Shown: in pieces, positions 16,743 through 34,494 of the stretch | How positions within the stretch are numbered: the first letter of the stretch is position 1 | Layout of the letters: every line of letters starts with the position of its first letter | Assembly (NCBI GenBank): GCA_902780935.1 | Contig: CACZHP010000004.1 | Span: 1-64,000, forward strand | DNA: 64,000 nt | Direction: 5' to 3' | Source: an uncultured Bacteroidia bacterium | Lineage (GTDB): Bacteria; Bacteroidota; Bacteroidia; Bacteroidales; UBA932 | Position numbers and translations under genes: made by a program | The notes under the pieces: generated by a model | Database searches by the model: none | What the model was told of the DNA's origin: nothing | What the model saw: the letters and a program-made list of their open reading frames with translations, nothing else

Positions 16743-16862
16743 ATGTTCAAGCGAACATAGCAAGTTGTGTTTTGGGCAGCCCGAAACGATTCGGGCAACC
16801 CCAAAACAACTTGCCACTCGCCTGACGGCTCGGGGAGGGATTCACTCCAAAGTCGTGAATCC
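16743..16862 (+). other. Candidate oriT: three adjacent hairpins before mobA
   Basis: Hairpin 1 is ATGTTC/GAACAT (16743-16758). Hairpin 2 is long: GCAAGTTG at 16760 pairs with CAACTTGC ending at 16814, enclosing TTTTGGG/CCCAAAA and a tip CCCGAA/TTCGGG. Hairpin 3 is GGATTCAC/GTGAATCC (16838-16862). Clusters of inverted repeats directly upstream of the relaxase genes are typical of origins of transfer. The nick site cannot be placed from sequence. A role as mRNA leader is the alternative. Confidence 0.55.
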
Positions 16863-16897
16863 ATAGCGGAAGTTAGTAACCAATTAAATGTAAAGTT

Positions 16898-18635: not shown

Positions 18636-20666
18636 ATGCAACAGGAAGATGATTTGAGAGGATTGGCAAAGGTCATGGAGTTTATGCGTGCCATATCCAT
18701 AATATTTATTGTAGTACATATCTACTGGTTCTGCTATCAGGCTATCGTGGATATGGGTATCAACATCGGAGTGGTAGATAAGATTCTGCTCAACTTTCAG
18801 AATACGGCAGGGCTGTTCAGCAACCTGCTTGTGACAAAGGTATTCGCCATCATATTCTTGGCTCTCTCGTGCCTCGGCACAAAGGGAGTCAAGAATCAGA
18901 AGATGACCTGGCAGAAGATTTATGCTACCTTCCTCGGAGGTCTTGTTCTCTTCTTTATGAACTGGTGGATGCTCGACCTGCCGTTCTCGCCAATCGTGAA
19001 TATGGTAATCTATACCATTACAATAACAGCCGGATATATCCTCCTTCTGATGTCGGGAGTATGGATTAGCCGTATGTTCAAGCATAACCTTATGGAAGAT
19101 GTCTTCAATGTGGCCAACGAGAGTTTTATGCAGGAGACACGCCTAATGGAGAACGAGTATTCGGTAAATCTGCCTACGAAGTTCATCTATCAAGGCAAGG
19201 TATGGGACGGTTGGATAAATGTCGTGAATCCGTTCCGAGCAACCATTGTATTGGGAACACCGGGTAGCGGTAAGTCGTATGCCGTAGTCAATAACTACAT
19301 CAAGCAGACCATAGCCAAAGGTTTTGCAACATACATCTACGACTACAAGTTTGATGACCTATCGGTAATTGCCTATAATGAGCTGTTGAAAAATATCGAC
19401 AAGTACAAGGTAAAGCCGAGTTTCTATGTCATCAACTTTGACGACCCACGACGCTCACACCGCTGTAATCCCATCAATCCGAAGTTTATGGTTGATATCA
19501 GCGATGCCTATGAATCTGCATATACTATTATGCTTAACTTGAATAAAACATGGATTCAGAAGCAGGGCGACTTCTTCGTAGAGTCACCGATAATTCTTTT
19601 GGCGGCTATCATCTGGTATCTGAGAATCTACAAGGACGGTAAGTATTGTACCTTCCCTCATACTATTGAGTTCTTGAACAAGCCGTATGCTGATATCTTT
19701 ACGATTTTGACCTCATATCCTTCGTTGGAAAACTACCTATCTCCATTTATGGACGCATGGAAAGGTGGAGCTCAAGATCAGCTCCAAGGCCAGATAGCAA
19801 GTGCAAAGATTCCGCTTTCGAGAATGATTTCTCCGCAGCTCTATTGGGTGATGACGGGCGATGATTTTACCCTCGACTTGAACAATCCAAATGAGCCGAA
19901 GATACTCTGCGTTGGCAATAATCCCGACCGCCAGAATATCTACTCTGCGGCACTCGGACTATACAACAGCCGTATCGTAAAGTTGGTGAACAAGAAAGGT
20001 CAGTTGAAGAGTTCCATCATCATTGATGAGTTGCCAACCATCTATTTCCGTGGCATCGACAACCTCATTGCCACAGCACGAAGCAACAAGGTGGCGGTTT
20101 GTCTCGGTTTTCAGGATTACTCGCAGTTGGCTCGTGACTATGGCGACAAGGAGGCGAAGGTTATCCAAAATACGGTGGGTAATATCTTCAGCGGACAGGT
20201 GGTAGGTGAAACAGCCAAAAACCTTTCGGAGCGTTTCGGCAAGATACTCCAGCAGCGTCAGTCGGTATCTATCAACCGTCAGGACACATCAACATCTATC
20301 AACACGCAGCTGGACTTCCTTATACCTGCCTCGAAGATTTCCAACCTCTCACAAGGTACATTCGTGGGTAGTGTGGCGGATAACTTCGGAGAAGAGATTG
20401 ACCAGAAAATTTTCCACTCACGCATCATCGTGGATAGTGCAAAGGTAAGTGCCGAGACAAAGGCATACAAGAAGATTCCTATCGTCAATGAGTTCAAGGA
20501 CGAGAACGGCAACGACATTATGCAGGAACAGATAGAGCGTAACTACTCCCGTATCAAGGACGAAGTCGAGCAGATAGTTCAAGATGAGATGGAGCGTATA
20601 AAGGCTGATCCTGAGTTGCGTAAACGATTGTTGCCAGACGAGAAGGACGAAGAGGATAACGATTAG
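18636..20666 (+). CDS. mobC: Type IV coupling protein MobC (VirD4/TraG family)
   Basis: The 676-residue inner-membrane ATPase hands the relaxase-DNA complex to the TraG-driven channel. N-terminal membrane helices occur around 14-35, 62-82, 95-115 and 120-142. A VirD4-like ATPase follows, with Walker A LGTPGSGKSYAVV (about 207-214) and Walker B region SIIIDELPTIYFRGID. The C-terminal tail is strongly acidic (PDEKDEEDND), as is common for coupling proteins. The transcript then runs into pseudoknot motif copy A. Confidence 0.9.
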   Translation: MQQEDDLRGLAKVMEFMRAISIIFIVVHIYWFCYQAIVDMGINIGVVDKILLNFQNTAGLFSNLLVTKVFAIIFLALSCLGTKGVKNQKMTWQKIYATFLGGLVLFFMNWWMLDLPFSPIVNMVIYTITITAGYILLLMSGVWISRMFKHNLMEDVFNVANESFMQETRLMENEYSVNLPTKFIYQGKVWDGWINVVNPFRATIVLGTPGSGKSYAVVNNYIKQTIAKGFATYIYDYKFDDLSVIAYNELLKNIDKYKVKPSFYVINFDDPRRSHRCNPINPKFMVDISDAYESAYTIMLNLNKTWIQKQGDFFVESPIILLAAIIWYLRIYKDGKYCTFPHTIEFLNKPYADIFTILTSYPSLENYLSPFMDAWKGGAQDQLQGQIASAKIPLSRMISPQLYWVMTGDDFTLDLNNPNEPKILCVGNNPDRQNIYSAALGLYNSRIVKLVNKKGQLKSSIIIDELPTIYFRGIDNLIATARSNKVAVCLGFQDYSQLARDYGDKEAKVIQNTVGNIFSGQVVGETAKNLSERFGKILQQRQSVSINRQDTSTSINTQLDFLIPASKISNLSQGTFVGSVADNFGEEIDQKIFHSRIIVDSAKVSAETKAYKKIPIVNEFKDENGNDIMQEQIERNYSRIKDEVEQIVQDEMERIKADPELRKRLLPDEKDEEDND

Positions 20667-20717
20667 AATCTGTATCCTATTTCTTACCGCAAAGGTTGTC
20701 CCGTCCTTTCGGATTGA

Positions 20718-20796
20718 GCAAGGTCAAGCCCTGTGGGTGTCGTGGAAAAATCATCCTCGCCCACGGGGCTTGCGGTATTTTTCCCGCCAACCTTGC
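20718..20796 (+). ncRNA. Pseudoknot motif, copy A
   Basis: GCAAGGT (20718) and ACCTTGC (20790-20796) close the element. Stem P1 pairs CAAGCCCTGTGGG (20725-20737) with CCCACGGGGCTTG (20760-20772). Stem P2 pairs GGAAAAAT (20744-20751), in the P1 loop, with ATTTTTCC (20777-20784), outside it, giving a pseudoknot order 1-2-1'-2'. The loop contains AAAATCATCCTCGC, identical in copies B and C. The end lies 80 nt before the ATG at 20877. Confidence 0.65.
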
Positions 20797-20876
20797 ACAA
20801 TCCTGCACGGAACAGTCAAGGCGGTAAAGAAATAGAATACAGTGCTTCGCCTGTAATATGTATAACTAAAATAATA

Positions 20877-21137
20877 ATGAGTATGGCTGACAATAAGAAG
20901 CAATCGAAAGTATGGGACAATATCCCCTCGTGGGCTGTCTATGCTCTTGAATATGGCATAGAAGAAGATCCTCTTTTGGAAACTGATGAAGAGAATATGA
21001 TTATCAAATTCCTTGAAGAGAATTTCCCTGAAGGGTGCATTATGACCGTAGATTGGGATTCTCGAAGAGAGTTTAATCCATTTCCGGCATTTGGAAAACC
21101 TTGTGCAACTTATAAAGTAACCTTTAATACATTATAG
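20877..21137 (+). CDS. Small acidic protein of unknown function
   Basis: The 86-residue protein starts MSMADNKKQSKVWDNIPSWAVYALEYG. I chose the ATG at 20877 because the longer frame from 20733 would translate through pseudoknot motif A. The product is acidic, with no signal or membrane helix. The motif IPSWAVYALEYG...LEENFPEGC recurs in small proteins of Bacteroides mobile elements, but I know no function. The next gene starts 2 nt after its stop. Confidence 0.7.
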   Translation: MSMADNKKQSKVWDNIPSWAVYALEYGIEEDPLLETDEENMIIKFLEENFPEGCIMTVDWDSRREFNPFPAFGKPCATYKVTFNTL

Positions 21138-21139
21138 AT

Positions 21140-21631
21140 ATGATTAGAATGACATTGTCAGAGTATCTCCGCAAACCAAAGGATTATCGCGGAGAATGGA
21201 CTACCGAAAGATGGGATATTCCCAACTGGGAAGAAGAACGAGAGAAGTATATGGGAAAGCGTACACTAATGACAAACATTGATGGTGCTACCTGCTTGGT
21301 TATCGAAGGCATGAGCCTTGAGATTATTGATGACTCCGATTGTAAGAAACCCGATGCTGTCAAGAAGGAAATCAGCCGTCAATGCTTGAAGTTCTTTACA
21401 GAGCGAGGCATCGAGCCTCATTATGCCGATTGTCTTATCCGCTATAAGGACAACTACGATACAGTTGAAGTGCGTATCGCCATTGGTATGGATTCCGATA
21501 CCGAAAAGGATGATGACATTTTCTTCTATTGCGATACGCTGGAAGATATGAAGTCACTTGCAGAAATCGGCAGTGAGGACTTTTACATTGCCGACTGCTA
21601 CAGCTTCGGAGTATATGAAGATTTATTATAA
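21140..21631 (+). CDS. Hypothetical protein, mob-region cargo
   Basis: The 163-residue, soluble, acidic protein is rich in D, E, Y and W. No known motif is recognised. It has an open alpha/beta pattern (CLVIEGMSLEIIDDSD; YDTVEVRIAIGMDSDTEKDD). It lies 2 nt after the preceding gene and 19 nt before the next, so the three form one operon behind pseudoknot motif A. Confidence 0.65.
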   Translation: MIRMTLSEYLRKPKDYRGEWTTERWDIPNWEEEREKYMGKRTLMTNIDGATCLVIEGMSLEIIDDSDCKKPDAVKKEISRQCLKFFTERGIEPHYADCLIRYKDNYDTVEVRIAIGMDSDTEKDDDIFFYCDTLEDMKSLAEIGSEDFYIADCYSFGVYEDLL

Positions 21632-21650
21632 ACCTTAAAAAATATCGAGT

Positions 21651-21941
21651 ATGAAGATTTTATGTCAAGAGCGTTATGAAAAGGCTGTTGCCTACGCAAA
21701 GGAAATCAAGAATGAAACATTGCAGAAATGTATTGACCGTTTGAAACAATGGGAAGAAAATCCAAACTGCCCGTGTGAGATTGAACTCTACTATGACTCT
21801 GCGCCTCACTCATTCGGATTCCGACAGGTATATCCCGATGGCAGAACGGGTATTGTCGGAGGATTGCTCTATCACGGACAGCCCGACCAATCGTTTGCTG
21901 TATTGCTGAATCCTATTCACGGGTGGACTATACACACATAG
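21651..21941 (+). CDS. Hypothetical small protein
   Basis: The 96-residue protein starts MKILCQERYEKAVAYAKEIKNETLQKCIDRLKQWEENP. An N-terminal helical half precedes a beta half (IELYYDSAPHSFGFRQVYPDG). There is no signal or membrane segment, and the function is not recognised. It is the last gene of the three-gene group. A strong hairpin begins 1 nt after its stop. Confidence 0.65.
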   Translation: MKILCQERYEKAVAYAKEIKNETLQKCIDRLKQWEENPNCPCEIELYYDSAPHSFGFRQVYPDGRTGIVGGLLYHGQPDQSFAVLLNPIHGWTIHT

Positions 21942-21983
21942 GCTAATAGAAAAGTCTTTTTATAAAAAGGTTTTTCTATTAGC
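21942..21983. terminator. Bidirectional hairpin terminator
   Basis: GCTAATAGAAAA (21942-) pairs with TTTTCTATTAGC (to 21983), with A- and T-runs on both arms. It lies directly after the stop at 21941. Confidence 0.75.
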
Positions 21984-22003
21984 ACCATTTTACTCAATAG
22001 TAG

Positions 22004-22046
22004 AGCCAACTTACACTTCAAAAAAATGGAGTTTAAGTTGGCTTTT
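22004..22046 (+). terminator. Second terminator hairpin
   Basis: AGCCAACTTA (22004-22013) pairs with TAAGTTGGCT (22034-22043), followed by TTT. It lies between the small-gene operon (+) and rloB (-). The A-run in the loop side is less suited to the minus strand. Confidence 0.7.
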
Positions 22047-22136
22047 CTGATGTAGATAAATATTTGCTTAATTCTTTATTTGTAGATTTAATGTGTAAAT
22101 TTTGCGAAAAATTCGCAGAAATAAAGAATTAAATCT

Positions 22137-23231
22137 CTAAAATTCAAATTTAGGTAGTAGCAATATCTCTTTGTTTGGGACTGCTCCTATCACTACAACT
22201 TCATTTGGCATAAGTTCACACGGTATTACTTCTGTACAGTTATTGTCTAACAACAATGGCTTTTCAATCAAATCTTTTTTTGTATTATTCTCCCAATCAT
22301 ATATTGAAAACATTCCTTTTCTAAATAATTCCCGTCCTTCCTTATGATTCGTTATACGCAAGCCATCATTACTTAATTGTACAGACCAATTGCTACCATG
22401 TTCATTATAATTATATGGAGTGTCATAGCAAATGGTCATTTTTCCAATTAATCTACCAACAAGAACATCTACATTTGTATATGGATTTCTACAATACATT
22501 GGTTCTTCAGTATTGGCATCGCTTTCTGCTCTTAATCTACACGCATTGATTATTCCTTTAATCAACTTATCCTTAACTATAGGGAAAGTAGAATCCGATG
22601 ATTTTGTTTGCAGCCAATAACCTTTAGATCTTGCGTATCCATTAATACATATTCTTCCACCACAATCTTTATCTGGATTTTTACCTGTACCACATTCAAA
22701 AATGTGTTTATTCCCATTTATTCTTTCACCGCATTCCGTTTCATCAAATGGGTAATAAATGTATTCGAAATGCAACAGTAAGTAGTATTCAAAACTTCTT
22801 GAAGAGAATGCAATATTGACCTTCTTGCCTTCAATTTCTTTGTTGGCTTCGGCTAAAGCCTCTTCATGCTTCGGGTGTTCATCTTTGTCGTATACAGCCC
22901 ATGATTCATCTACACCTTCTGATAAAATCTGTCGTGCATATTGAACCCATTTTAATGGTGGTGTACCGGTAATTACAACATCCTCTACAGGATTCTCTTC
23001 ATGAGTTTTTGTCTTACGCTTCTTGCCTTTATAGTTTCCTCTAGAATAATTCTCAGCCTCTTCATCTTGTGGAATATTAGGCTGAGGTATTGTACGCACA
23101 TCCATATCTTCACAATCTTTAAAGTATAAATCACAAAGACTGGTGAAGAATAATGGCTCAGTCTTTTCTCCCTCGCACACTATCCTTATGACATATTTAC
23201 TATGACGCGTATTCTCGTTATTTCTTGCCAT
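22137..23231 (-). CDS. rloB: RloB-family protein (AbiLii-like)
   Basis: The 364-residue protein's N-terminal half is RloB/Toprim-like: glutamate motif RIVCEGEKTEPLFF (about 17-29) and acidic WAVYDKDEHP (about 110-119), with SRSFEYYLLLHFE. RloB with an RloA-type ATPase makes up AbiL-like abortive-infection systems; the Toprim-like part is predicted to act on nucleic acid. A further C-terminal stretch of about 100 residues (from about 265) is unfamiliar and longer than usual RloB. The start overlaps the rloA end by 14 nt, so the two are co-translated. Confidence 0.8.
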   Translation of the reverse strand: MARNNENTRHSKYVIRIVCEGEKTEPLFFTSLCDLYFKDCEDMDVRTIPQPNIPQDEEAENYSRGNYKGKKRKTKTHEENPVEDVVITGTPPLKWVQYARQILSEGVDESWAVYDKDEHPKHEEALAEANKEIEGKKVNIAFSSRSFEYYLLLHFEYIYYPFDETECGERINGNKHIFECGTGKNPDKDCGGRICINGYARSKGYWLQTKSSDSTFPIVKDKLIKGIINACRLRAESDANTEEPMYCRNPYTNVDVLVGRLIGKMTICYDTPYNYNEHGSNWSVQLSNDGLRITNHKEGRELFRKGMFSIYDWENNTKKDLIEKPLLLDNNCTEVIPCELMPNEVVVIGAVPNKEILLLPKFEF

Positions 23232-24459
23232 CCTCTACAAAGAGTTTTTCTAATGATTGCAATGATGGAACTCCTCCAAATTTATTGTTCATATACCACT
23301 TAGCAAATAATGTTTCTTCTCTTACATCTTCAAAGTCCGAAAGTGTAAACATCTCAGAAACTCCATATTTATCTTTTTCTGTAAACCATATTTGGTCTTT
23401 GCGGATAGAATTTTGATCAAGGAGATTCACATCGTGAGTAGTAAAAATCAATTGAGCATTGTTTTTATTGATTCTCTCATTTCTAAAAATATCAACTATT
23501 AATCTAGTGATGTATGAATGGAGTCCTGAGTCCATTTCATCTATAAAGAATGGACTTCCATTCTGCAATGCTTGCAAAATATGACAGCCAATAATAAACA
23601 AGGCTCTTGTTCCAAAAGACTCTTCTTTCAGCGGTAGATCAGTTTTACCTATACCTTCTCCATCTTTATACAATCCATGCAAACTAGTCACTTCAACACC
23701 ATCACTTCGTTTCTCCAACTGAAAATCAGTCAATCCAGTATCGGCGAATGTAAGAAATTCTGCTAACATCTTTTTATAGTCAGGATGTGAATATAACCAT
23801 CTTAGCATCTCTTTATCTTCTCCAAGTATCGTGTCTTCGTGAAAACCATTTGAGATTACCATATCAACTAAATATTTCGCTGCATTGGTAATTGGTTCAC
23901 ATGGGGTGTCTTTTAAGAATTTTGACATCAGCAACTGATTCTTAAATACATTAAAGGCTTTGAACGAAGAAAGACTGGAGCCAAACTTTATAGTGTCAGA
24001 CTCTTTATTATCTGGCAATAATATACGTTCATATAATTGAGTCTGCTTTCCATTTGGATATGATATTAAAGATTCCAATATAATTTGTTGCCTTACAAAA
24101 TGCACCTCATATTTATAACGTACCTTTTGTGCAATAAACTCCATCGTGAATTCTGTAGGAGCATCGGCGGTTGCGCTATCAAATTTGAAGGGTTGATATA
24201 AAGCGATATCCTCACCAACACGATTATCTATATTTAATAACCATCTTCTAAAGCCATACAAAAATTTTATGATATTAGTCTTACCAGATGCATTTGCACC
24301 AAATATTAGAGATATCTTTAAAGCTTTCTTGTTTCCTTCAGCATTAGTTTCTACCTCACACAGATTTTCAACCTTTGCTTTAGATGAGGTTGGTTCTGTA
24401 GTAAAAGAGCAAGTGCCCTTAAAGGAACGATAATTCTTAAATTCTAAATTTAATATCAT
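23218..24459 (-). CDS. rloA: RloA-type AAA/ABC ATPase (AbiLi-like)
   Basis: The product is 413 residues from the ATG at 24459 (MILNLEFKNYRSF). A longer TTG start at 24480 overlaps the -7 element and is unlikely. It is an SMC/OLD-like ATPase: Walker A GANASGKTN (near residue 54), Walker B FFIDEMDSGLHSY, and H-loop FTTHDVNLLD. It is the ATPase half of an AbiL-like phage-defence pair with rloB. Its low GC compared with the tra and mob genes marks it as separately acquired cargo. Confidence 0.85.
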   Translation of the reverse strand: MILNLEFKNYRSFKGTCSFTTEPTSSKAKVENLCEVETNAEGNKKALKISLIFGANASGKTNIIKFLYGFRRWLLNIDNRVGEDIALYQPFKFDSATADAPTEFTMEFIAQKVRYKYEVHFVRQQIILESLISYPNGKQTQLYERILLPDNKESDTIKFGSSLSSFKAFNVFKNQLLMSKFLKDTPCEPITNAAKYLVDMVISNGFHEDTILGEDKEMLRWLYSHPDYKKMLAEFLTFADTGLTDFQLEKRSDGVEVTSLHGLYKDGEGIGKTDLPLKEESFGTRALFIIGCHILQALQNGSPFFIDEMDSGLHSYITRLIVDIFRNERINKNNAQLIFTTHDVNLLDQNSIRKDQIWFTEKDKYGVSEMFTLSDFEDVREETLFAKWYMNNKFGGVPSLQSLEKLFVEDGKK

Positions 24460-24477
24460 AATTCTGTTAGTTTTCTG

Positions 24478-24485
24478 CAAAAATA
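24478..24485 (-). promoter_or_regulatory. -7 element of rloAB
   Basis: The minus strand reads TATTTTTG followed by CAG, a full match to TAnnTTTG. The ATG at 24459 is about 18 nt downstream, which argues against the longer TTG start. Confidence 0.5.
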
Positions 24486-24783
24486 GCGATTTAATTTATT
24501 ACAAACAAATTTATTTCTCTATTTCTGCGGAAATACTACAATTTTCTTTCCTTAATTCATTTCGTGTTCAATAAATACTACTTATTCAATCGTATTGAAC
24601 AGAGGTCTTTTATTGAACAACGTCTTCTTATTGCCATTTTGCTCCGCTAATATACCTAATATAATAATGTCTTGAGTTGATTCTGATTGAGAATTTCACC
24701 CTCATAGTACCTTATTCTATATTCTTCTACAAACAGCATAGCGTAAAAATCCCGCTTCACTCGCAAAGTCCCTTCAAGAAGTT

Positions 24784-24890
24784 AACTCGGAGGGACAATA
24801 CCTCCACGTTCGAGCCGAGGGTTTTCGGGCAAAAAATTCTCTGCGATAATTTTTCACCCGAAAAAACGCTCCGGTATCGCCGTCCGAGTT
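24784..24890 (+). other. 107-nt imperfect hairpin in the 0.9-kb gene-free region
   Basis: The outer stem is AACTCGGA (24784-24791) with TCCGAGTT (24883-24890). Inside are GAGC/GCTC (24812-24815/24868-24871), TTTTCGGG/CCCGAAAA (24822-24829/24857-24864) and AAAAATT/AATTTTT (24832-24838/24848-24854). The inner part resembles stem P2 of the pseudoknot motif. The rest of 24486-25250 shows no convincing gene; short frames there lack coding character. Confidence 0.55.
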
Positions 24891-25257
24891 GAGACAGAGG
24901 TTGGGACTTAGCAAGCGAAGCGACCTACGACGCATAGTACAACAGGTCAAAAATCCATTGCGGTAAGATATGCCGCATCTCTATTCTCAACCTGACTGCC
25001 ATATCTATATTTCATTATAAGGTCTATCAACCACCGCCACCTTTTTAGTGCCTGATTTTTTAAGTGGGGACAAAAGCAGCTCAGCTCTCAACTCTGCATA
25101 TTACAAAAGTTATTTCTTTTCGGTCATACCACAGCTTTTTCTCGCACATTTTTTTGCCTTTGTTTTTCGCTCCTTCCGACCCCGTTTCGGTATGGAGCGT
25201 TTTCCCTCTTTTCACCCTTGTTTTGCCCCTTTTTGTGCCTTTGCTTTCCTACCTGCT

Positions 25258-25283
25258 ATGACAAGTGATGACACCTTATGACT
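25258..25283 (+). promoter_or_regulatory. Triple ATGACA operator upstream of the exc operon
   Basis: ATGACA at 25258 and 25268 and ATGACT at 25278 keep an exact 10-bp period. The site is nearly the reverse complement of the one at 12520-12545. It ends 49 nt before the -7 element at 25333. Relative to the gene, the orientation is the same as at traE. Confidence 0.65.
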
Positions 25284-25332
25284 TGTATAGTCTAATGACT
25301 TAAATGTCAATGTTTTATCAAATTTTGCTATA

Positions 25333-25340
25333 TATATTTG
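25333..25340 (+). promoter_or_regulatory. -7 element of the exc operon
   Basis: TATATTTG is a full TAnnTTTG match 40 nt before the ATG at 25381. No TTTG is found at the expected -33 position (about 25309), which fits a promoter that needs an activator bound at 25258-25283. Confidence 0.55.
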
Positions 25341-25380
25341 CGGTGACAACATTAGTTATTAACGCTAAAAACTCACAGTT

Positions 25381-27132
25381 ATGGCAAAGAAAAATGTAAG
25401 GGATGACCCTTCAAAAACACAAGTCACCGAGAACCCGCAGATGAGCGACATCGTGCTGGTTTTAGACAAAATGGAACTGCTCATTCAGGCGGTATCCGAA
25501 ATCAACAAGAACGGCAAGTATTCCACCGTGCCGGCAGACAAGGAGCATCAGAACTCCTTTCTCAAGATTGACCGTTATGCGACCTTCTTCGAGAACTTCC
25601 TCAAGAACTTCTGGAGTCAGCTGAAAGACCCTACACACTTCGGTCTCTTCACGATGAAGGAGGAGGAGTTCGACAAGCCCGAAGTCAAGCAGGCCATCGA
25701 AGACCTTGCCGAAGGTAAGAAAACAAAAGCAGTGGAAGAGTTTCTCAAAAAGTATGAGATAACCCCCAAAAACCAAACAGAACAGAGTATTAACAATCAA
25801 AATTCAGAAGAAATGGCAAAGAAAAATCAAACCCAGCAGCCCGTCGTTGAAGCTAACGACCAGCAGCAGAACAATCAGTATCGTTACAACGAGTCTATGA
25901 TCAACTGGGACCAGTTGAAGAACTTCGGACTCTCACGTGAGTATCTTCAGGAGCGAGGACTCCTTGATTCAATGCTCAAAGGCTACAAGACCAACCAGCT
26001 TGTACCTATCAACCTTAACTTCGGCTCTGCCGTACTGCGTACCGATGCACGCCTATCGTTGCAGCAGTCCAACACCGGTGAGGTGGTACTCGCCATCCAC
26101 GGTATCCGCAAGCAACCCGAATTGGAGCGTCCTTACTTCGGACACATCTTTTCGGAAGAGGACAAGAAGAACCTCCTCGAAACAGGTAATATGGGCCGAG
26201 TGGTGGAACTCAAAGGTCGCAACGGGGAATATATCCCATCGTTCATCAGCCTTGACAAGATGACCAACGAGGTGGTGGCCATGCGTGCCGAGAATGTCTA
26301 TATCCCTAACGAGATTAAGGGTGTTCAACTCACCGACCAGGAGAAGAACGACCTGCGTGAGGGCAAGAAGGTCTATATCGAGGGTATGACCGCCAAGTCG
26401 GGCAACGAGTTCAACGCCCACATTCAGGTGAGTGCCGAGCGCAGAGGTATCGACTTCATCTTCGAGAACGACCGCATCTTCAACCGCACCGCCCTCGGTG
26501 GTGTGGAGCTTACCAAGCAGCAGATTGAAGACCTCAATGCAGGCAAGGCAATCTTCGTGGAAGATATGCAGCGTAAGGATGGAGAACTCTTCTCATCGTA
26601 TGTGAAACTCGATGAGGCGACAGGACGACCCAACTACACACGCTACAACCCCGACTCGCCCGAAGGTGCAAGAGAAATCTACATTCCGAAGGAGATCGGT
26701 GGCGTGAAACTTACCGCTGAGGAGCAGAAAGATCTGCGTGAGGGACGAGCCATCTTCCTCAATGATATGGTGAACAACCGTGGTGAGGAGTTCTCTTCGT
26801 TCATCAAGGCAGACCTTGAGACGGGACGACTGATGTACTCACGCACTCCCGATGGCTTTGAGGAGCGTGCCAAGTTCGAGATTCCGAAGGAAATCTTCGG
26901 TGCCAAGCTCTCCGGTCAGCAGCGTGCCGACCTTCAGAGCGGCAAGTCGGTACTCGTGGAGGGCATGAAGGGCTTCGATGGCAAGAGCATTTCGCAGTAT
27001 GTCAAGCTGAACTCCAACCAAAACAAGCTCGACTTCTATAACGAGAATCCCGACCGAAACCGCAACGCATCACAGCGTAATGTGGTAGCCGAGAAACAGG
27101 AGAAGCGTCAGTCAAAGGGACAGAGCATCTAA
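25381..27132 (+). CDS. DUF3945/DUF4099 repeat protein of the exc operon
   Basis: The 583-residue protein has an N-terminal domain (about 1-115), a low-complexity Q/N linker (about 125-160) and a DUF4099-like domain (about 165-245). About five DUF3945-type repeats of roughly 57 residues follow (IPKEIGGVKL, LREGRAIFLNDM, GEEFSSFIK pattern), ending near 560. Such proteins accompany topoisomerase III in CTnDOT-like elements; the function is unknown. An internal ATG at 25813 repeats the first 15 nt of the gene exactly, so a shorter second product or an old gene fusion is likely. Confidence 0.8.
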   Translation: MAKKNVRDDPSKTQVTENPQMSDIVLVLDKMELLIQAVSEINKNGKYSTVPADKEHQNSFLKIDRYATFFENFLKNFWSQLKDPTHFGLFTMKEEEFDKPEVKQAIEDLAEGKKTKAVEEFLKKYEITPKNQTEQSINNQNSEEMAKKNQTQQPVVEANDQQQNNQYRYNESMINWDQLKNFGLSREYLQERGLLDSMLKGYKTNQLVPINLNFGSAVLRTDARLSLQQSNTGEVVLAIHGIRKQPELERPYFGHIFSEEDKKNLLETGNMGRVVELKGRNGEYIPSFISLDKMTNEVVAMRAENVYIPNEIKGVQLTDQEKNDLREGKKVYIEGMTAKSGNEFNAHIQVSAERRGIDFIFENDRIFNRTALGGVELTKQQIEDLNAGKAIFVEDMQRKDGELFSSYVKLDEATGRPNYTRYNPDSPEGAREIYIPKEIGGVKLTAEEQKDLREGRAIFLNDMVNNRGEEFSSFIKADLETGRLMYSRTPDGFEERAKFEIPKEIFGAKLSGQQRADLQSGKSVLVEGMKGFDGKSISQYVKLNSNQNKLDFYNENPDRNRNASQRNVVAEKQEKRQSKGQSI

Positions 27133-27184
27133 TCCATAACTCGGACAACTCAAATCAATGTATAACTCTAAAACGAATTTTAAG

Positions 27185-27439
27185 ATGAACGATAAGAATA
27201 AAGCACCTTTCAAGGTGGAAGATGTAAATTGGGACGAACTATCAGGTATAGGTATCCTCAAGGATGAACTCGAACAGGCAGGCGAGCTTGAGACGCTGCT
27301 CCGAGGCGAGAAGACGGGTGTCGTATCGCTGAGCCTCGTACTCCTCGGTGTAGATGTGGTGATGGATGCCACTTTGCAGCTTGTACGCAAGAACGACTCT
27401 CCGCTGCTCGAAATCATCGGTATCAACCCCACGCAGTAA
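27185..27439 (+). CDS. Stand-alone DUF4099-like protein
   Basis: The product is 84 residues from the ATG at 27185. An upstream ATG at 27158 lies in a leader motif (ATGTATAACT) that also precedes two other ICE genes, so it is probably not the start. The sequence VEDVNWDELSGIGILKDELEQAGELETLLRGEKTGVV closely resembles the DUF4099-like region of the preceding protein. It is likely a partner or duplicate of that domain, placed between it and topB. Confidence 0.7.
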   Translation: MNDKNKAPFKVEDVNWDELSGIGILKDELEQAGELETLLRGEKTGVVSLSLVLLGVDVVMDATLQLVRKNDSPLLEIIGINPTQ

Positions 27440-27463
27440 CACGATTCCATTACTAACCTGACA

Positions 27464-27499
27464 GCCGTTTCCCGCACCGTAATCGGGACGGGAGACGGC
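27464..27499 (+). terminator. Hairpin between DUF4099 gene and topB
   Basis: GCCGTTTCCCG (27464-27474) pairs with CGGGAGACGGC (27489-27499) with one wobble, then TTCTTT. It sits 22 nt before the topB ATG, so it may attenuate topB or lower its translation. Confidence 0.55.
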
Positions 27500-27520
27500 T
27501 TCTTTAATTCCCGAATAATT

Positions 27521-29617
27521 ATGATAGCAATTATAGCAGAAAAACCGAGCGTAGGTCAGGACATCGCCCGCGTCATCGGTGCAACAGAGAAGAAGGACGG
27601 TTATATGGCAGGCAACGGGTATCTTGTAACCTGGGCATTGGGACACCTCGTTTCCCTCGCCATGCCATCGGCATACGGATACGGTAAGGCTTCGCATGAG
27701 GATTTGCCTATGCTTCCTGAACCGTTCCAGCTTGTGGTAAGACAGATCAAGACCGACAGAGGTATGGTAACGGACATCGGTGCCGCCAAGCAGCTCAAGG
27801 TCATTGACGAGGTATTCAGCAAATGTGACAGCATCATCGTGGCAACGGATGCAGGTCGTGAGGGTGAGCTTATCTTCCGATACATCTACCACTACCTCGG
27901 ATATACCAAGCCCTTCAAGCGTCTTTGGATCTCCTCACTCACGGACGAGGCTATCCGTGCAGGTATGAGCAATCTCAAGGATGGCGAGGCTTACGATGCA
28001 CTCTACCACGCTGCCGATTGTCGTGCTAAGGCTGATTGGCTCGTGGGTATGAACGCCAGCCGTGCATTGGCTTTGGCTTCGGGTATGCCGAACAACTCCC
28101 TCGGACGAGTGCAGACACCCACGCTGGCGATGATATGCAACCGTTACAAGGAGAACCGCGACTTCGTTTCCACACCTTATTGGCAACTGCACATTACCCT
28201 TGAGCGTCTGGGCGAGTTCCGTCAGTTCGCACATATCGAGGACTTCAAGAGCAAGGAGCAGGCAGAGGCGGCACACGCACGATTCTCGCCCGACTCAACG
28301 GCACTCATCACGAAGGTGGAGCGTAAACGTACCTACCAGCAGGCACCGCTACTGTACGACCTTACCACATTGCAGAAGGAGTGCAATACCTATCACGATA
28401 TGAGTGCGGAGAAGACTCTTTCTGTGGCACAGGCTCTCTATGAGAAGAAGTATATCTCATATCCGAGAACGGGCAGCAGATATATCTCGCACGACCTGAT
28501 GGAGCAGGTCTATGATTCCCTATGGAAGATTGCCACCATGCCTGAGTTCAAGGAGTATGGCAAGCGTTTCGACTTCGATCATCTGAATATGCGTAGTGTA
28601 GATGATGACAAGGTAACGGATCACCACGCACTCATCATCACAGGCGTAGAGCCCGAGGAGTTGAACGCCCACGAGCAGATTGTCTATACGATGATTGCAG
28701 GGCGTATGCTTGAAGCGTTCTCGCCACGCTGCGAGAAGGAATCATTGGTAATGGAGGCGACAGCAGAGGATATGAAGTTCCGTTCACGCTCTACTACCAT
28801 CGTCAATCCGGGCTGGCGTGCTGTCTTTGCCCGTAAGGAGGATGCCGAGAAGGACGAGACCGAAGCCAACAAGGGTACGGCACGCTTTGCCGAGGGTGAA
28901 CAGATACCCGTTACGGGCTATGGCACGGCACAGCGTAAGACAATGCCGAAACCTCTCTACACCGAAGCGACACTCCTTGCCGCTATGGAGACTTGTGGCA
29001 GGAACATCACCGATGAGAAGGCAAAAGAGGCAATGAAGGAGCTGGGTATCGGAACACCTGCCACACGAGCCGCCATCATCACGACACTCTTCAAGCGAGA
29101 CTATATCGAGCGTTCGGGCAAAGCGCTTGTACCTACTGAGAAGGGACTCTATATCTACGAGGCAGTCAAGGATATGCAGGTTGCCAATGTGGAGCTGACA
29201 GGCAGTTGGGAGAAGACGCTCCTTCAAATAGAGCAACATACTTTGGAAACACGCTCCTTTATGCACTCCATCGAGAGTTTCACATCGCAGGTTACACGGG
29301 AGGTCCTCGGACTGAAGTTCCCTGCACCAAAACAGCGTTCCTTTCCTTGCCCCAAATGCGGTACAGGCAAAGTGATGATACGCCCCAAGGTCGCCAAGTG
29401 CGACAATCCTGATTGCGGTCTGCTTGTATTCCGCAAGGTGCTGAACAAGGAGCTTAACGAGCAGCATCTGGAGCAGTTGCTCTCATCGGGAGCAACCAAG
29501 CTGATCAAGGGATTCAAAGGCAAGAAAGGCAACTCCTTCGATGCCGCCGTAGCCTTTGACGATGAGTTCAATGTAACGCTGGCATTTCCCGACAAGAAGA
29601 GAGGTAAGAAAAGATGA
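27521..29617 (+). CDS. topB: DNA topoisomerase III (Exc-like)
   Basis: The 698-residue type IA topoisomerase has a Toprim domain with AIIAEKPSVGQDIARVIG (start) and VATDAGREGELIFRYIY. The catalytic Tyr314 is in YISYPRTGSRYIS, and a C-terminal zinc-binding region (about 610-635, CPKC...CDNPDC) follows. In CTnDOT the exc gene of the excision operon encodes this enzyme. The length and all key residues look intact. Pseudoknot motif copy B begins 55 nt after the stop. Confidence 0.95.
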   Translation: MIAIIAEKPSVGQDIARVIGATEKKDGYMAGNGYLVTWALGHLVSLAMPSAYGYGKASHEDLPMLPEPFQLVVRQIKTDRGMVTDIGAAKQLKVIDEVFSKCDSIIVATDAGREGELIFRYIYHYLGYTKPFKRLWISSLTDEAIRAGMSNLKDGEAYDALYHAADCRAKADWLVGMNASRALALASGMPNNSLGRVQTPTLAMICNRYKENRDFVSTPYWQLHITLERLGEFRQFAHIEDFKSKEQAEAAHARFSPDSTALITKVERKRTYQQAPLLYDLTTLQKECNTYHDMSAEKTLSVAQALYEKKYISYPRTGSRYISHDLMEQVYDSLWKIATMPEFKEYGKRFDFDHLNMRSVDDDKVTDHHALIITGVEPEELNAHEQIVYTMIAGRMLEAFSPRCEKESLVMEATAEDMKFRSRSTTIVNPGWRAVFARKEDAEKDETEANKGTARFAEGEQIPVTGYGTAQRKTMPKPLYTEATLLAAMETCGRNITDEKAKEAMKELGIGTPATRAAIITTLFKRDYIERSGKALVPTEKGLYIYEAVKDMQVANVELTGSWEKTLLQIEQHTLETRSFMHSIESFTSQVTREVLGLKFPAPKQRSFPCPKCGTGKVMIRPKVAKCDNPDCGLLVFRKVLNKELNEQHLEQLLSSGATKLIKGFKGKKGNSFDAAVAFDDEFNVTLAFPDKKRGKKR

Positions 29618-29671
29618 TGTCAGTCATCCCGATTCGTAGGCAAAGGTAGTGAACCGCCCTCATTCCACCCC

Positions 29672-29745
29672 GCAAGGTCGTGCCGCAGGCGGTTTCGGCA
29701 AAAATCATCCTCGCTCGGCTGCGGTATTTTTACCGAAAACCTTGC
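29672..29745 (+). ncRNA. Pseudoknot motif, copy B (RteR-like location)
   Basis: GCAAGGT (29672) and ACCTTGC (29739-29745) close the element. P1 is TGCCGCAG (29681-29688) with CTGCGGTA (29719-29726). P2 is TTTCGGCAAAAAT (29693-29705) with ATTTTTACCGAAA (29726-29738), again in 1-2-1'-2' order. It lies just downstream of the exc-like topB gene, the place where the CTnDOT regulatory RNA RteR is reported, and 69 nt upstream of the next ATG. Confidence 0.65.
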
Positions 29746-29813
29746 AGGTGGAGGCGTTTCACATCCAGGCCCACGAAATCGGGAACGACTGTTCCCACTA
29801 AATAATATAGGAT

Positions 29814-30047
29814 ATGAAAACAAATGACCCGACCGTAAGAAAGAGAATGAAGTGGATAGGTATGATACTATTAGCCGTAGTAGCAGCATTAGGTTTCAGC
29901 TATCTCTATACACGAGGTGTATCACCCGTATGGGCTGCGGTAGCCATCGTATGCTTCCCTGGCTTCTTCCGATTCATATACAAGATTGCCTGCATCGTAA
30001 TGGCAGCATTGATACTCTTTGCTATCCTCAGTTTCTTGGTCTTCTAA
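29814..30047 (+). CDS. Small membrane protein
   Basis: The 77-residue product has a basic, soluble N-terminus (MKTNDPTVRKRMKW) and two or three hydrophobic segments (about 15-30, 36-50, 55-77). The family is not recognised. It stands alone behind pseudoknot copy B and before a strong terminator at 30121. Confidence 0.6.
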   Translation: MKTNDPTVRKRMKWIGMILLAVVAALGFSYLYTRGVSPVWAAVAIVCFPGFFRFIYKIACIVMAALILFAILSFLVF

Positions 30048-30120
30048 CTCTTAAAGCAATGAAAAGGTCTTGTCATCGACATACAACATATAAGCAGATA
30101 TATTGCGATATGGGTTATGG

Positions 30121-30147
30121 GAGCTGTCCTTCTCGGACGGCTCTTTT
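30121..30147 (+). terminator. Intrinsic terminator
   Basis: GAGCTGTCC (30121-30129) and GGACGGCTC (30135-30143) form a 9-bp stem with a short loop, followed by TTTTT. It ends the transcript of the small membrane protein gene. The 375-nt gene-free stretch 30048-30423 contains this and pseudoknot copy C. Confidence 0.8.
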
Positions 30148-30263
30148 TGTAGGTGGACGATTCAAGAATGAGGATATGAATGAAGAAAGGGATAGAGAAA
30201 ATACCAGCCATTGGCAAGCCGATGAACTACAGGGCAAAGTTGGCCAATGCTTCTTGTCGGACA

Positions 30264-30337
30264 GCAAGGTCAGGCCACAGGTGGTTTCGGAGAAAATCAT
30301 CCTCGCCGTGCTGCGGTATTTTCCCCGAAAACCTTGC
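30264..30337 (+). ncRNA. Pseudoknot motif, copy C
   Basis: GCAAGGT (30264) and ACCTTGC (30331-30337) close the element. P2 pairs TTTCGGAGAAAAT (30285-30297) with ATTTTCCCCGAAA (30318-30330). The A-T pair of copy B is G-C here, a compensatory change. P1 is weaker (GCCACAG with CTGCGGT, one mismatch). AAAATCATCCTCGC is conserved. It ends 86 nt before the ATG at 30424. Confidence 0.65.
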
Positions 30338-30423
30338 CTTACCGGAAGCATTAGCCTTAACGCCCTCGTAGTTCAACGGACTGCCAAAGTCCGAGTATTA
30401 ACCATATAATAAAAGATAAAGCT

Positions 30424-30636
30424 ATGAATCAAGCAATCATCGCAAGTGTACCGATGGCACCGATGCAGATGCCTGTGGTACGTAGAAGAAGAGTAAAGGT
30501 CGCAGAACCTGAAATCAAGTTGCCGCCAAGAGGCTCACGAGGTCCGGTACATATATCGGAGTTGCTCAATCCCATTCTGGAGATAAGCAAGCATCCTGAC
30601 CGTAACAGACTGCTTGCAGAGTTCTTCAACCAGTGA
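30424..30636 (+). CDS. Small hypothetical protein upstream of PRTRC genes
   Basis: The 70-residue, proline- and basic-rich product (MPMQMPVVRRRRVKVAEPEIKLPPRGSRGPVHISELLNPILEISKHPDRNRLLAEFFNQ) has no signal or membrane helix. The C-terminal half looks helical. The function is not recognised. It is the first gene after pseudoknot copy C and is followed 45 nt later by the PRTRC cassette, so it probably belongs to that operon. Confidence 0.6.
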   Translation: MNQAIIASVPMAPMQMPVVRRRRVKVAEPEIKLPPRGSRGPVHISELLNPILEISKHPDRNRLLAEFFNQ

Positions 30637-30681: not shown

Positions 30682-31641
30682 ATGTTTTTTACATCAATTT
30701 CACAGATGATGACCGAGAGCGTAGATCTGACTCTGGTCATCCGCAAAGCGAACGGACAACTTACTGTATCAACATTGCCGAAGGCTAATGGGCTGAAAGA
30801 TGAAGCCCAGAACCACATCGTTCCGCTGACACTAACGGGCACTCCCGAAGAGATGGATGCAGAGTTCCTGCAACACATCATGCAGCCTATACGCAAAGCT
30901 ACGGGACTTATCTCCAATTTGATGGAGTTCGAGAAGCAGGCAGATAAGGCTGCTGCCAACAGCAAGGCGGCAAAGGATGCCAAAGCCAAGGAAACCAAAG
31001 AGGAGAAGGAGAAGCGTGAGAAGTACGAGAAGCATATGAAGAAGGCTGAGGAACTTATCACAGCCAAGAATCATAAGGATGCCATCACCGCACTCCAACA
31101 GGCTCGTATGTATGCCACTGCCGACAAGCAGAAGGAGGTAGATGAGAAGATTGCCGCACAGAAGAAGGCGATGAACCAAGGATCGCTCTTCGAGATGATG
31201 GAAGAGACTCCTGCACCGGCTCCACAAGTGGCACAACCGCAGAATGTGGCACCGCAACCTGCACAGCAGACTATCCAGCCGCAGGCAGCACCACGACAGA
31301 TGCCGCCACAGCCACAACAGACGGTAATGCGTCCCGTGCAACAGCCGATACAGCGACCTGTTCAGCAACCTCCACAGCCTCAGTATGGCGGGCAGCCTAT
31401 GTTCTCCGCACCACAAGGCGGTTATCCACCTCAAAATGCAGGACAGCAGCATCCTCACTATCCACAGGGTGAGATTCCGATGTTCCCACATCATGAGGAG
31501 CCTCCTATGCCTGAAGAGTTACAGCAGGTATATATGCACGAAGGCCCTGCATATCGCCCCGAGGATTATGAGGAATATCCCGACTTCCCTCAGTCAATGT
31601 TAGAAAATCATTATTCACAGGCATACGCCCAAACAGTTTAA
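30682..31641 (+). CDS. PRTRC system protein E
   Basis: The 319-residue protein's N-terminal domain (about 1-80) has the PRTRC-E pattern FTSISQMMTESVDLTLVIRKANGQLTVS. A long coiled coil rich in K and E follows (about 85-165), then a proline/glutamine-rich tail (about 175-319). PRTRC (ParB-related, ThiF-related cassette) genes occur on plasmids and ICEs with unknown collective function. It is first of the cassette, 4 nt before protein C. Confidence 0.75.
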   Translation: MFFTSISQMMTESVDLTLVIRKANGQLTVSTLPKANGLKDEAQNHIVPLTLTGTPEEMDAEFLQHIMQPIRKATGLISNLMEFEKQADKAAANSKAAKDAKAKETKEEKEKREKYEKHMKKAEELITAKNHKDAITALQQARMYATADKQKEVDEKIAAQKKAMNQGSLFEMMEETPAPAPQVAQPQNVAPQPAQQTIQPQAAPRQMPPQPQQTVMRPVQQPIQRPVQQPPQPQYGGQPMFSAPQGGYPPQNAGQQHPHYPQGEIPMFPHHEEPPMPEELQQVYMHEGPAYRPEDYEEYPDFPQSMLENHYSQAYAQTV

Positions 31642-31645
31642 GACT

Positions 31646-31867
31646 ATGGCACTTTTAAGAAACGAAATGCAGCGATCATTCACCTTCAAGAAAGGTACAG
31701 AGATGATTACACTTCCTGATCCCAATCCGAACGACTCTCCGGAGAGCGTTATGAGTTACTATTCAAACATCTATCCGGAACTCACAACAGCAACCGTACA
31801 CGGCCCGACCATCAAGGATGACAGGGCTGTATATGAGTTCAAGACAACCATCGGAACAAAAGGATGA
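31646..31867 (+). CDS. PRTRC system protein C
   Basis: The 73-residue product MALLRNEMQRSFTFKKGTEMITLPDPNPNDSPESVMSYYSNIYPELTTATVHGP... matches the small PRTRC-C protein in length and in the LPDPNP...YPELTTA motif. It is soluble, with no signal. It is tightly spaced with protein E (4 nt) and the following small gene (5 nt). Confidence 0.8.
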   Translation: MALLRNEMQRSFTFKKGTEMITLPDPNPNDSPESVMSYYSNIYPELTTATVHGPTIKDDRAVYEFKTTIGTKG

Positions 31868-31872
31868 GAACT

Positions 31873-32037
31873 ATGAGTAAGGACACTAAAAAGAAGAAGT
31901 CATGCAGACCATTGGACGAACATCAGTCGGAACAGCTCGCGAGGATGATAATCGCATCGACCAAGCGGGAGGTACGATACGGTGTGACAAGAGTAGAGAG
32001 AGTTACGGCGCCAACGGGTGCCGTAATTCTTTTCTAA
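31873..32037 (+). CDS. 54-residue basic protein within the PRTRC operon
   Basis: The frame starts at the ATG at 31873 and reads MSKDTKKKKSCRPLDEHQ, then SEQLARMIIASTKREVRYGV, then TRVERVTAPTGAVILF, and ends in TAA at 32035. It starts 5 nt after PRTRC-C and fills the gap to PRTRC-F, so it fits the operon better than a long N-terminal extension of F in another frame. Its last codons form a perfect hairpin with a T tract. The function is unknown; a basic, small regulator is possible. Confidence 0.6.
   Translation: MSKDTKKKKSCRPLDEHQSEQLARMIIASTKREVRYGVTRVERVTAPTGAVILF
32003..32034 (+). terminator. Terminator-like hairpin inside the PRTRC operon
   Basis: TTACGGCGCC (32003-32012) pairs with GGTGCCGTAA (32017-32026) around the loop AACG, followed by TTCTTTTC. 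It overlaps the end of the 54-residue gene and precedes PRTRC-F, so transcription of F, B and ThiF may be attenuated here. Confidence 0.65.
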
Positions 32038-32072
32038 AGACACCAATTCTTCCCATAGCACCACAGACTATT

Positions 32073-32993
32073 ATGAGGGAGAGCTATAGCGGAAACAGTT
32101 ATAACCTAATCACGCAGGAGAATTACGAATACCTGCGTGATTCTTATTTCCGCTATGCCGAACTTATGAATGTAAAGGCGGAGCATACGCCAGGCAGAAC
32201 TATTGGTGAAGGTATTGTCAATCTCTACAATGAGATGAACGACCTCGTAAATAAAAGCGGCATGTATCTCAACCTTGAGGATGACAATGGCTGTCTATAC
32301 TTCAATGTGTGGAACACACATACTTGGGGTGAATACACACTGTATTACTTCCCTGTAAAGTTTGTGGAGGAACTGAATCCCACACTCAGACGCATTGTCA
32401 TCACATTCTATCATGATTTCATGAAAGAGAACGGTATAACCACCATCAACGATGAGTCAGATATGGACTGGGCTATTGATATGCTGACTGAAGGCTGCTA
32501 TGAGGATGAAGATGCCAAAGAGAGGCGAGCGAGGGAAAAGCTCGTGAAATCATACAAGGATGGTAGAGCATATAAACTCCTCGACAGGGTGTGGCGAAAG
32601 TCCTACTACAAGAACCTGCCGAAAGCCATAGAAGAATATGAGTGTAAGAATGGCTTTGAACAAGGTCTTATCGAACTGCTGAGAAGAGGACTTGAGTTCA
32701 TAAAGACGGAGAAAGCCATCATGTACTATGGCTATGACCCGTTCTACGATGAGGAGCCCGATTATCTGCCGATGACACTCGAACAGCAGATAAGGGTTGT
32801 CTATGATAGCGATGATATAATGACGGAACACCTTATCGACTTCTATAATTCCTCCCGTCAGGAGTCATACGATATTATTCCTGCATCAACCTTTGCCGTC
32901 TCTCCAACGACCGACAAGGTTTTTACACTTGAAGATACCTACCCCGAAAGGTTTTTCAAGTGGGCAGATGATTTTATTCACTACATACGATAA
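32073..32993 (+). CDS. PRTRC system protein F
   Basis: The product is 306 residues from the ATG at 32073 (MRESYSGNSYNLITQENYEYL). The frame is open upstream to an ATG at 31902, but that stretch is occupied by the 54-residue gene and a hairpin. The body is soluble, acidic and aromatic-rich, and the order E-C-F-B-ThiF matches known PRTRC cassettes. The molecular role is unknown. It is 5 nt before protein B. Confidence 0.75.
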   Translation: MRESYSGNSYNLITQENYEYLRDSYFRYAELMNVKAEHTPGRTIGEGIVNLYNEMNDLVNKSGMYLNLEDDNGCLYFNVWNTHTWGEYTLYYFPVKFVEELNPTLRRIVITFYHDFMKENGITTINDESDMDWAIDMLTEGCYEDEDAKERRAREKLVKSYKDGRAYKLLDRVWRKSYYKNLPKAIEEYECKNGFEQGLIELLRRGLEFIKTEKAIMYYGYDPFYDEEPDYLPMTLEQQIRVVYDSDDIMTEHLIDFYNSSRQESYDIIPASTFAVSPTTDKVFTLEDTYPERFFKWADDFIHYIR

Positions 32994-32998
32994 TCACT

Positions 32999-33697
32999 AT
33001 GGATACCAACAAACTTACCAAGCAGATAAATACGATGCTGCGCCCCCGTGCGGCATTGATAGCATACTCCACAGATGGAGGAGATACATACTTCCTTGAA
33101 GTACGGGACATAGATAATGAGGGTGTTATGAGCGAAGGCCGTCCCGTAACGGTGGACTTCATCAACGAACTGATAAAGGGGTATTCCGAAAGGCACAGCA
33201 GCACACCGCATGGTCGCATCCCAACAAATATGCTATGGAGTGATACACGCAAGGGCTACGAGAAATATATCTGGTACAACCCGCCACAAAAGCGTATGAT
33301 GTTCTTCAAGGAGTCGCTACATATTGAAAATGCCGAGTACAACCTGCCCGGTGTCATCTATGAGGTGAGTGATGAGCGTATGAATATCTACGCATACATA
33401 GACAAGGAGCTGAAACCCGAAACGGAACTCTACGCTGCTCCGTTCTTCAATGTCACGGGGGCAAGCGTCTGTCTTGGATCGGCAAAGATTGACAAACCGA
33501 CAGAGATTACCTACGACAAATTACTTGAGTACTGGGAGAAGAAGTTCTGGCTCACGGAGTTCTCACACCTCGGAGGTAACGGAAATCCCACAAAGAGCAA
33601 CCTTGTACTGGTAACAAAGGCAGCAAAGGATGCTCCCTTCAACATTGAAGAGTTAAAGCCTCTAAAGAATTTGAAACTTAAAGATATACTACGATGA
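32999..33697 (+). CDS. PRTRC system protein B
   Basis: The 232-residue protein is identified by the PRTRC-B pattern: MLWSDTRKGYEKYIWYNPPQKRMMFFKE and LPGVIYEVSDERMNIYAY, followed by APFFNVTGASVCLGSA. It is soluble. Its stop overlaps the ThiF gene by 4 nt (ATGA), so the two are translated together. Confidence 0.85.
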   Translation: MDTNKLTKQINTMLRPRAALIAYSTDGGDTYFLEVRDIDNEGVMSEGRPVTVDFINELIKGYSERHSSTPHGRIPTNMLWSDTRKGYEKYIWYNPPQKRMMFFKESLHIENAEYNLPGVIYEVSDERMNIYAYIDKELKPETELYAAPFFNVTGASVCLGSAKIDKPTEITYDKLLEYWEKKFWLTEFSHLGGNGNPTKSNLVLVTKAAKDAPFNIEELKPLKNLKLKDILR

Positions 33698-34482: not shown

Positions 34483-34494
34483 CCGTAATAGACC

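Follow-up and report, generated by a model that had tools for sequence, protein, structure and literature searches.

In Frpo and ssi elements, hairpins that act as promoters on single-stranded DNA, bases around the -10/-7 element are left unpaired. Frpo2 of plasmid F lies upstream of ssb, and single-stranded promoters have been demonstrated in F (PMC9849209). A survey of leading regions published in 2024 found new candidates from -35/-10 consensus boxes, and the word Bacteroid does not occur in it (PMC11541004). The published sigma-ABfr consensus consists of TAnnTTTG at -7 and TTTG near -33 (PMC7366714), and elements of this type would therefore probably escape a survey built on -35/-10 boxes. 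We found no report of single-stranded-DNA promoters in Bacteroidota in open-access papers, subscription papers and preprints lying outside the search. Here, we analyzed a repeated hairpin motif of an integrative and conjugative element (ICE) carried by a stretch of 64,000 nucleotides (nt), hereafter the window, which covers positions 1-64,000 of the forward strand of contig CACZHP010000004.1 (GCA_902780935.1) from an uncultured Bacteroidia bacterium (Bacteroidales; UBA932). From its sequence features, we propose with a rough probability of 0.78 that the motif forms the apex of a single-stranded-DNA promoter of the Frpo/ssi type with a Bacteroidota sigma box, its function being predicted.

The first-pass annotation described three plus-strand copies, at 20718-20796 (A), 29672-29745 (B) and 30264-30337 (C), with outer arms GCAAGGT/ACCTTGC, a core AAAATCATCCTCGC and a compensatory change from AAAAAT/ATTTTT in copy B to GAAAAT/ATTTTC in copy C, all of which are readily seen in the sequence. 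The extent given for them was too short, as pairing runs approximately 50 nt past each end, and the motif occupies only the apical part of a hairpin approximately 170-180 nt in length. The exact core occurs three times in the window and three times in the whole source genome. Its pattern was also found in at least 118 stretches of the genome_contigs collection, mostly with Bacteroidales labels, and in 18 stretches of viral_contigs. Among the matches listed, 155 armed copies were examined, mostly from Bacteroidales ICEs. Removal of 7 armless pattern matches and of copies close to a locus end left 146 with full flanks, which were thinned to 89. The stem profile, box-free mismatch count and partner-arm information refer to 78 of the 89 copies, after exclusion of 11 without CAAA at the expected place.

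In line with the structured family suggested at first, stem covariation is strong. The mean arm score was 60.7 with a copy's own partner vs. 31.1 when the partner arm was taken from a copy picked at random (78 copies), and this difference indicates that the motif pairs beyond chance. Watson-Crick pairing by stem position was 0.64-1.0 from -24 to +34, except at the box described below and at a one-sided bulge in the spacer (positions 19-22, 0.32-0.46), and many stem positions showed all four pair types with little sequence conservation. An interleaved pseudoknot, also put forward for the motif, was rejected as a family feature: in the 89 copies, complementarity between the 5' segment and the copy's own loop was no higher than that obtained with permuted partners in three length classes (p 0.48-0.67). 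A local hairpin was present in the 5' segment in 76 of the 89 copies. Further, the window matched 0 of 4227 Rfam families at gathering scores, and 29550-30500 alone gave none at E up to 10.

Where a stem is maintained in RNA or single-stranded DNA, the folding strand accepts G.T mismatches in preference to A.C. We counted only mismatches flanked by Watson-Crick pairs, with a scoring neutral between A.C and G.T. On the plus strand of the 89 copies, 130 A.C and 33 G.T mismatches were observed; with longer arms the values were 150 and 45, with 62 copies richer in A.C and 7 richer in G.T. Thinning to 31 copies gave 45 and 16 (21 copies vs. 3), and exclusion of the box and the -33 arm gave 103 and 25. 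The other classes, boxes excluded, amounted to A.A 39/T.T 3, C.C 14/G.G 8 and C.T 45/A.G 9; all mismatch classes lean as expected for minus-strand folding, with a nearly even base composition. Composition skew was rejected as the source of the bias, since composition is near-even and the A.G vs. C.T counts run against an A/C-rich skew. By contrast, 93 terminator-like hairpins from the same loci, used as a control, contained 53 G.T and 18 A.C on the RNA strand. The A.C excess on the plus strand, opposite to the control, thus indicates that the strand selected to fold is the minus strand, which serves as template for the gene downstream.

These counts bear on whether the motif might instead be a plus-strand RNA leader with a pseudoknot (a riboswitch, antitermination or translation element). 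A constant place before open reading frames (ORFs) and covarying stems would fit such a leader, as would a conventional -7 box on the plus strand within 110 nt in 0 of 133 copies searched out of the 146, though shuffles gave only 2%. However, the mismatch asymmetry of 103 to 25 runs counter to what terminator-like RNA hairpins show, conservation of the pseudoknot was not observed and no Rfam family matched the window, which makes this explanation very unlikely. Of the cis-acting leader proposed in the first-pass annotation, the position in cis before ICE genes is supported, and the plus-strand RNA is not, because the stem mismatches are of the minus-strand type.

The minimum free energy (MFE) of DNA folding was lower on the minus strand in 76 of the 89 copies, and the difference exceeded that of a copy's own dinucleotide shuffles in 73. 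Approximately one-third of this difference is attributable to composition (-1.02 of -2.91 in shuffles), and the MFE test is therefore weaker than the mismatch test. In the window, minus and plus values were -48.1 and -45.6 for copy A (20665-20850), -50.9 and -45.8 for copy B (29620-29800), and -47.0 and -44.8 for copy C (30215-30395). For plasmid F, the region preceding ssb gave -84.2 on the minus strand and -76.7 on the plus strand, and a second stretch, nearer oriT, gave -50.7 vs. -47.0. In the predicted fold of F Frpo2, inspected by eye, ATCA beside the -10-like TGTATC appears unpaired.

The stem itself contains promoter-like boxes. The unanchored consensus of the 89 aligned copies is gGCAAAggTagc. 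Its 5' arm carries GCAAAnnT(A), which reads (T)AnnTTTGC on the minus strand and is the complement of the sigma-ABfr -7 box TAnnTTTG. Using a loose AAA anchor, the box was located in 83 of the 89 copies, with CAAAnnT in 78 and CAAAnnTA in 53. Spacing from the box to AAGG was 31 nt in 51 of the 83 copies and 28-33 nt in 82, the anchor slightly favouring 31; at the commonest spacing, CCTTG lies 22 nt from the box. Box positions 1-7 form the open part of the stem in the 78 copies, with pairing of 0.10-0.19 at AAA and 0.22-0.59 over the remaining positions, and are conserved on one arm only, the partner positions carrying 0.12-0.59 bit (CAAA being the anchor). The G and C flanking the box are conserved and paired on both arms. 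An A-tract stem lies approximately 10 bp beyond CCTTG in the printed copies, and may be likened to an UP element. The three window copies are composed as follows.

20665-20846, folding strand minus: copy A, entire hairpin; arm alignment pairs 20665-20723 with 20791-20846
20690-20697, minus: copy A, -7-like box in the bubble, AACCTTTG, differing from TAnnTTTG at the first base
20719-20723, minus: copy A, -33-like CCTTG arm (CAAGG on plus), paired with 20791-20795
20747-20781, minus: copy A, apical core AAAATCATCCTCGC ... GGTATTTT with A-tract stem
29621-29791, minus: copy B, entire hairpin; arm alignment pairs 29621-29677 with 29740-29791
29641-29648, minus: copy B, -7 box in the bubble, TACCTTTG, full consensus
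29673-29677, minus: copy B, -33-like CCTTG arm, paired with 29740-29744
29701-29730, minus: copy B, apical core, A-tract stem AAAAAT/ATTTTT
30209-30389, minus: copy C, entire hairpin; arm alignment pairs 30209-30269 with 30332-30389
30235-30242, minus: copy C, -7-like box in the bubble, CAACTTTG, differing from TAnnTTTG at the first base
30265-30269, minus: copy C, -33-like CCTTG arm, paired with 30332-30336
30293-30322, minus: copy C, apical core, A-tract stem GAAAAT/ATTTTC

An ordinary double-stranded promoter, CCTTG-N22-TAnnTTTG, could fire leftwards from the minus strand with the hairpin being incidental. The box does read correctly on that strand, but such a promoter needs neither a covarying partner arm nor a bubble at the box nor a narrow distance to the gene on its right, and we find this scarcely credible.

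That distance was determined from the 155 unthinned copies, of which 13 close to a locus end were excluded. In 141 of the remaining 142 copies, an ORF with an ATG start began 45-150 nt downstream of the point where the 3' arm starts, and in 110 of these 141 it did so at 78-100 nt. The downstream ORFs, which were called mechanically and some of which may not be genes, fall into 53 sequence clusters. If transcription is taken to start six bases past the box, the first ATG located 10 nt or more beyond that start lies at a median distance of 38 nt (128 copies, frame unchecked), and the predicted start precedes the gene start by 39-55 nt in the window copies. There, as first described, each motif is followed within approximately 69-87 nt by an ATG, at 20877, 29814 and 30424.

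20877-21137, plus strand: gene after copy A, 86 amino acids, DUF6926 (Pfam PF21977, 1.5e-12), predicted transcript start ~20828
29814-30047, plus strand: gene after copy B, 77 amino acids, without Pfam match, predicted transcript start ~29775
30424-30636, plus strand: gene after copy C, 70 amino acids, without Pfam match, predicted transcript start ~30369

The orientation of the copies was compared with that of the relaxase gene, which was taken as the reference for the ICE. The plus strand of the window carries the mob genes as well as the three copies, and the minus strand the TraG-type ATPase and ParA-type genes.

17346-18602, plus strand: relaxase (PF03432, 6.3e-26), reference orientation
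16723-16864, no strand assigned: candidate oriT, conserved upstream of mob genes in related ICEs

We extended the comparison to 16 genomes chosen for having copies, and thus non-random, together with the window; this gave 108 pattern matches with arms unchecked. A relaxase gene was present within 60 kb on the same contig for 73 of them, 70 of which were co-oriented with the nearest one, and 17 of 19 groups were wholly co-oriented. Up to 7 matches were found near one relaxase, and 41 of the 73 lay upstream of it. The candidate oriT, which separates the divergent ParA-type and mob genes, contains a large inverted repeat, GCAAGTTGTG...CAACTTGC. Among 11 other ICE regions, its match extends over 128-142 nt in 8 and over 27-30 nt in 3. 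In an alignment of 12 sequences, the region left of the repeat was nearly invariant and a second invariant block, CTCCAAAGTCG, lay to the right; with conserved sequence on either side, conservation does not place the nick side. The part of the element that enters last usually contains the relaxase gene (PMC11541004), and this, combined with an oriT upstream of the mob genes, suggests that the minus strand is transferred.

The same mismatch pattern would be expected if the stem were selected in a minus-strand structured RNA, either an antisense or a small RNA similar to RteR, unrelated to single-stranded DNA. An A-run left of the stem, a possible minus-strand U-run, occurs in 36 of 146 copies, and copy B directly follows a topoisomerase gene of the exc type, the place that the first-pass annotation gave for RteR. 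However, a minus-strand -7 box within 75 nt to the right of the hairpin was present in 1 of 146 copies (shuffles, 5.8%), and such an RNA leaves the bubble box, the narrow plus-strand ATG distance and the relaxase orientation unexplained; we regard it as unlikely.

Similarly improbable as the whole explanation is a single-stranded initiation site only, where the hairpin primes the second strand through RNA polymerase or primase and the gene position is secondary. The minus-strand fold and the presence of several copies per ICE, in both halves and up to 7 near one relaxase, agree with this, but priming needs no narrow distance to the ATGs of unrelated ORFs. Such a role is compatible with promoter function, and the Frpo of F reportedly has both, to judge from the title of Masai and Arai 1997.

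We favour the single-strand promoter because of the minus-strand fold, the box in a bubble, the narrow ORF distance and the co-orientation with the relaxase. For this promoter, we infer RNA polymerase binding and transcription, start site, timing and priming as follows. A single strand of the ICE, assumed here to be the minus strand, would enter the recipient, and the element on it would fold back as one long hairpin. In this hairpin, the template would be the 5' arm of the entering strand. Its 3' arm would provide the non-template side of the promoter, presenting in order an A-tract stem at the UP-element place, CCTTG as the -33 element, a spacer usually of 22 nt and (T)AnnTTTGC as the -7 box in its bubble. 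RNA polymerase would then start just past the box and transcribe the next gene while the second strand is still missing. The RNA produced may in addition serve as a primer for the second strand, and the promoter would be lost upon conversion to double-stranded DNA.

Proteins encoded downstream were searched for known families using representatives of 43 of the 53 clusters and two further window genes (45 in total). Pfam assigned DUF4121 to 4 and DUF4120, DUF4326, YpsA and DUF6926 to 1 each, with five further, weaker matches near the limit; NCBIfam added one extracytoplasmic function (ECF) sigma factor and one hypothetical family, and PHROGs named a primase family for 3 proteins. Downstream of the element we also observed an acidic family (L089:5498-5989, L041:5269-5760 and L094:262-765) of 164-168 amino acids, with an isoelectric point of 4.1, a charge of approximately -24 to -29 and a DNA-mimic-like composition. 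An anti-restriction identity was considered for it and is not claimed, the structural model being poor (predicted local distance difference test score, pLDDT, 43.5) and without a PDB match. A passage on the fragilis ArdA that cites ColIb-P9 work is found in PMC3969726.

Several observations weigh against the single-strand promoter. In the stem, strand bias is weak in the inner part (A.C 45, G.T 33), a complete TA is present in the box of 53 of 83 copies, with copies A and C of the window lacking the T, and CCTTG resembles the TTTG of the published -33 element only weakly. The stem also extends approximately 20 bp beyond the predicted start and would need melting. With regard to context, 3 of 73 copies oppose the nearest relaxase, 35 of 108 have none within 60 kb, and 32 of 73, including all three in the window, lie downstream of the relaxase and hence not in a classical leading region; the minus strand is the likely transferred one by the reasoning above, which the oriT alignment does not settle. 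No anti-defence gene was found among the scanned downstream proteins with Pfam, NCBIfam or PHROGs, most of these proteins having no known function. In plasmid F, a third stretch, which is not a known Frpo, was weak, with the plus strand lower in the best window, and a plain search for a -10-like ATTATA found none in the three F stretches. The opposed copies (G398:C23:12895, G406:C13:8496 and 13012) may represent assembly breaks, nested elements or real exceptions.

Elsewhere in the window, 30682-38300, after copies B and C, contains PRTRC-type genes (PRTRC_E, Prok-E2_D, ThiF), which precede a histidine kinase and a sigma-54-type response regulator, presumably similar to RteA/RteB. A de novo scan of the window that ignored the core recovered copies B and C (shuffles, 0.33 hits per window) and missed copy A at the threshold used. 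By blastn against 72,556 plasmids, copy B matched 2 and copy A 1 Bacteroidales records. When genomes were sampled at random, counting the source genome, the pattern was present in 2 of 395 from the phylum and 3 of 149 from the order (one of these three, G437, has a short loop, arms not checked), and the exact core is thus uncommon in a random sample.

Other labels among the pattern matches were a Clostridium metagenome-assembled genome (MAG; L007, L020, L057), Clostridiales (L054), Ignavibacterium (L039), Cytophagales (L056) and Alphaproteobacteria (L121). L039 and L056 carry the core pattern without arms; L121, labelled as an alphaproteobacterial MAG, has core and arms and may be either mis-binned or a real outlier. 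The 18 IMG/VR stretches with the pattern (L122-L139) are filed as viral, and several share ORF clusters with the genome copies, from which some of these contigs may be ICEs rather than viruses.

If the single-strand promoter is correct, it would explain gene expression from Bacteroidales ICEs on entry, make DUF4120, DUF4121, DUF6926 and the small window proteins candidates for early action, and offer mismatch type by strand as a simple sequence test for such promoters elsewhere. Our confidence is evenly balanced on a broader proposal, namely that Bacteroidales possess a class of single-stranded-DNA promoters with sigma-ABfr boxes, several per ICE along the transferred strand, which express small and largely uncharacterised genes located on either side of the relaxase and prime the second strand while the DNA is single-stranded, the RteR locus possibly lying on one such hairpin.

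With regard to known systems, RteR of CTnDOT resembles copy B in the post-exc location given by the first-pass annotation and, at 90 nt (PMC7366714), is close in length to the motif as first quoted (74-79 nt); unlike it, RteR is a trans-acting RNA. Structured RNA leaders in Rfam share a structured element placed before genes, but none of the 4227 families matched and the opposite strand folds here. EGeRS of pLS20-family plasmids likewise precede establishment genes of a conjugative element. The authors considered a single-stranded-DNA promoter unlikely for EGeRS1, which is too long and has no promoter in its fold, the nicked strand being the non-template (PMC8708921); in our element, by contrast, a box is present in the fold and the transferred strand would be the template. 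From Frpo/ssi, to which it is likened by anatomy, the element differs in its sigma-ABfr-type TAnnTTTG in place of sigma-70 -10/-35 boxes, in its tip and in its Bacteroidales hosts. Like Frpo/ssi of F and ColIb-P9 (PMC9849209, PMC11541004), it is a noncoding hairpin before genes of a conjugative element, present in more than one copy per element, with a template strand that folds better and promoter boxes rebuilt in the stem. The features of that group found here are a template-strand stem-loop, a -7 box within the stem, a bubble at the box and a co-oriented gene context.

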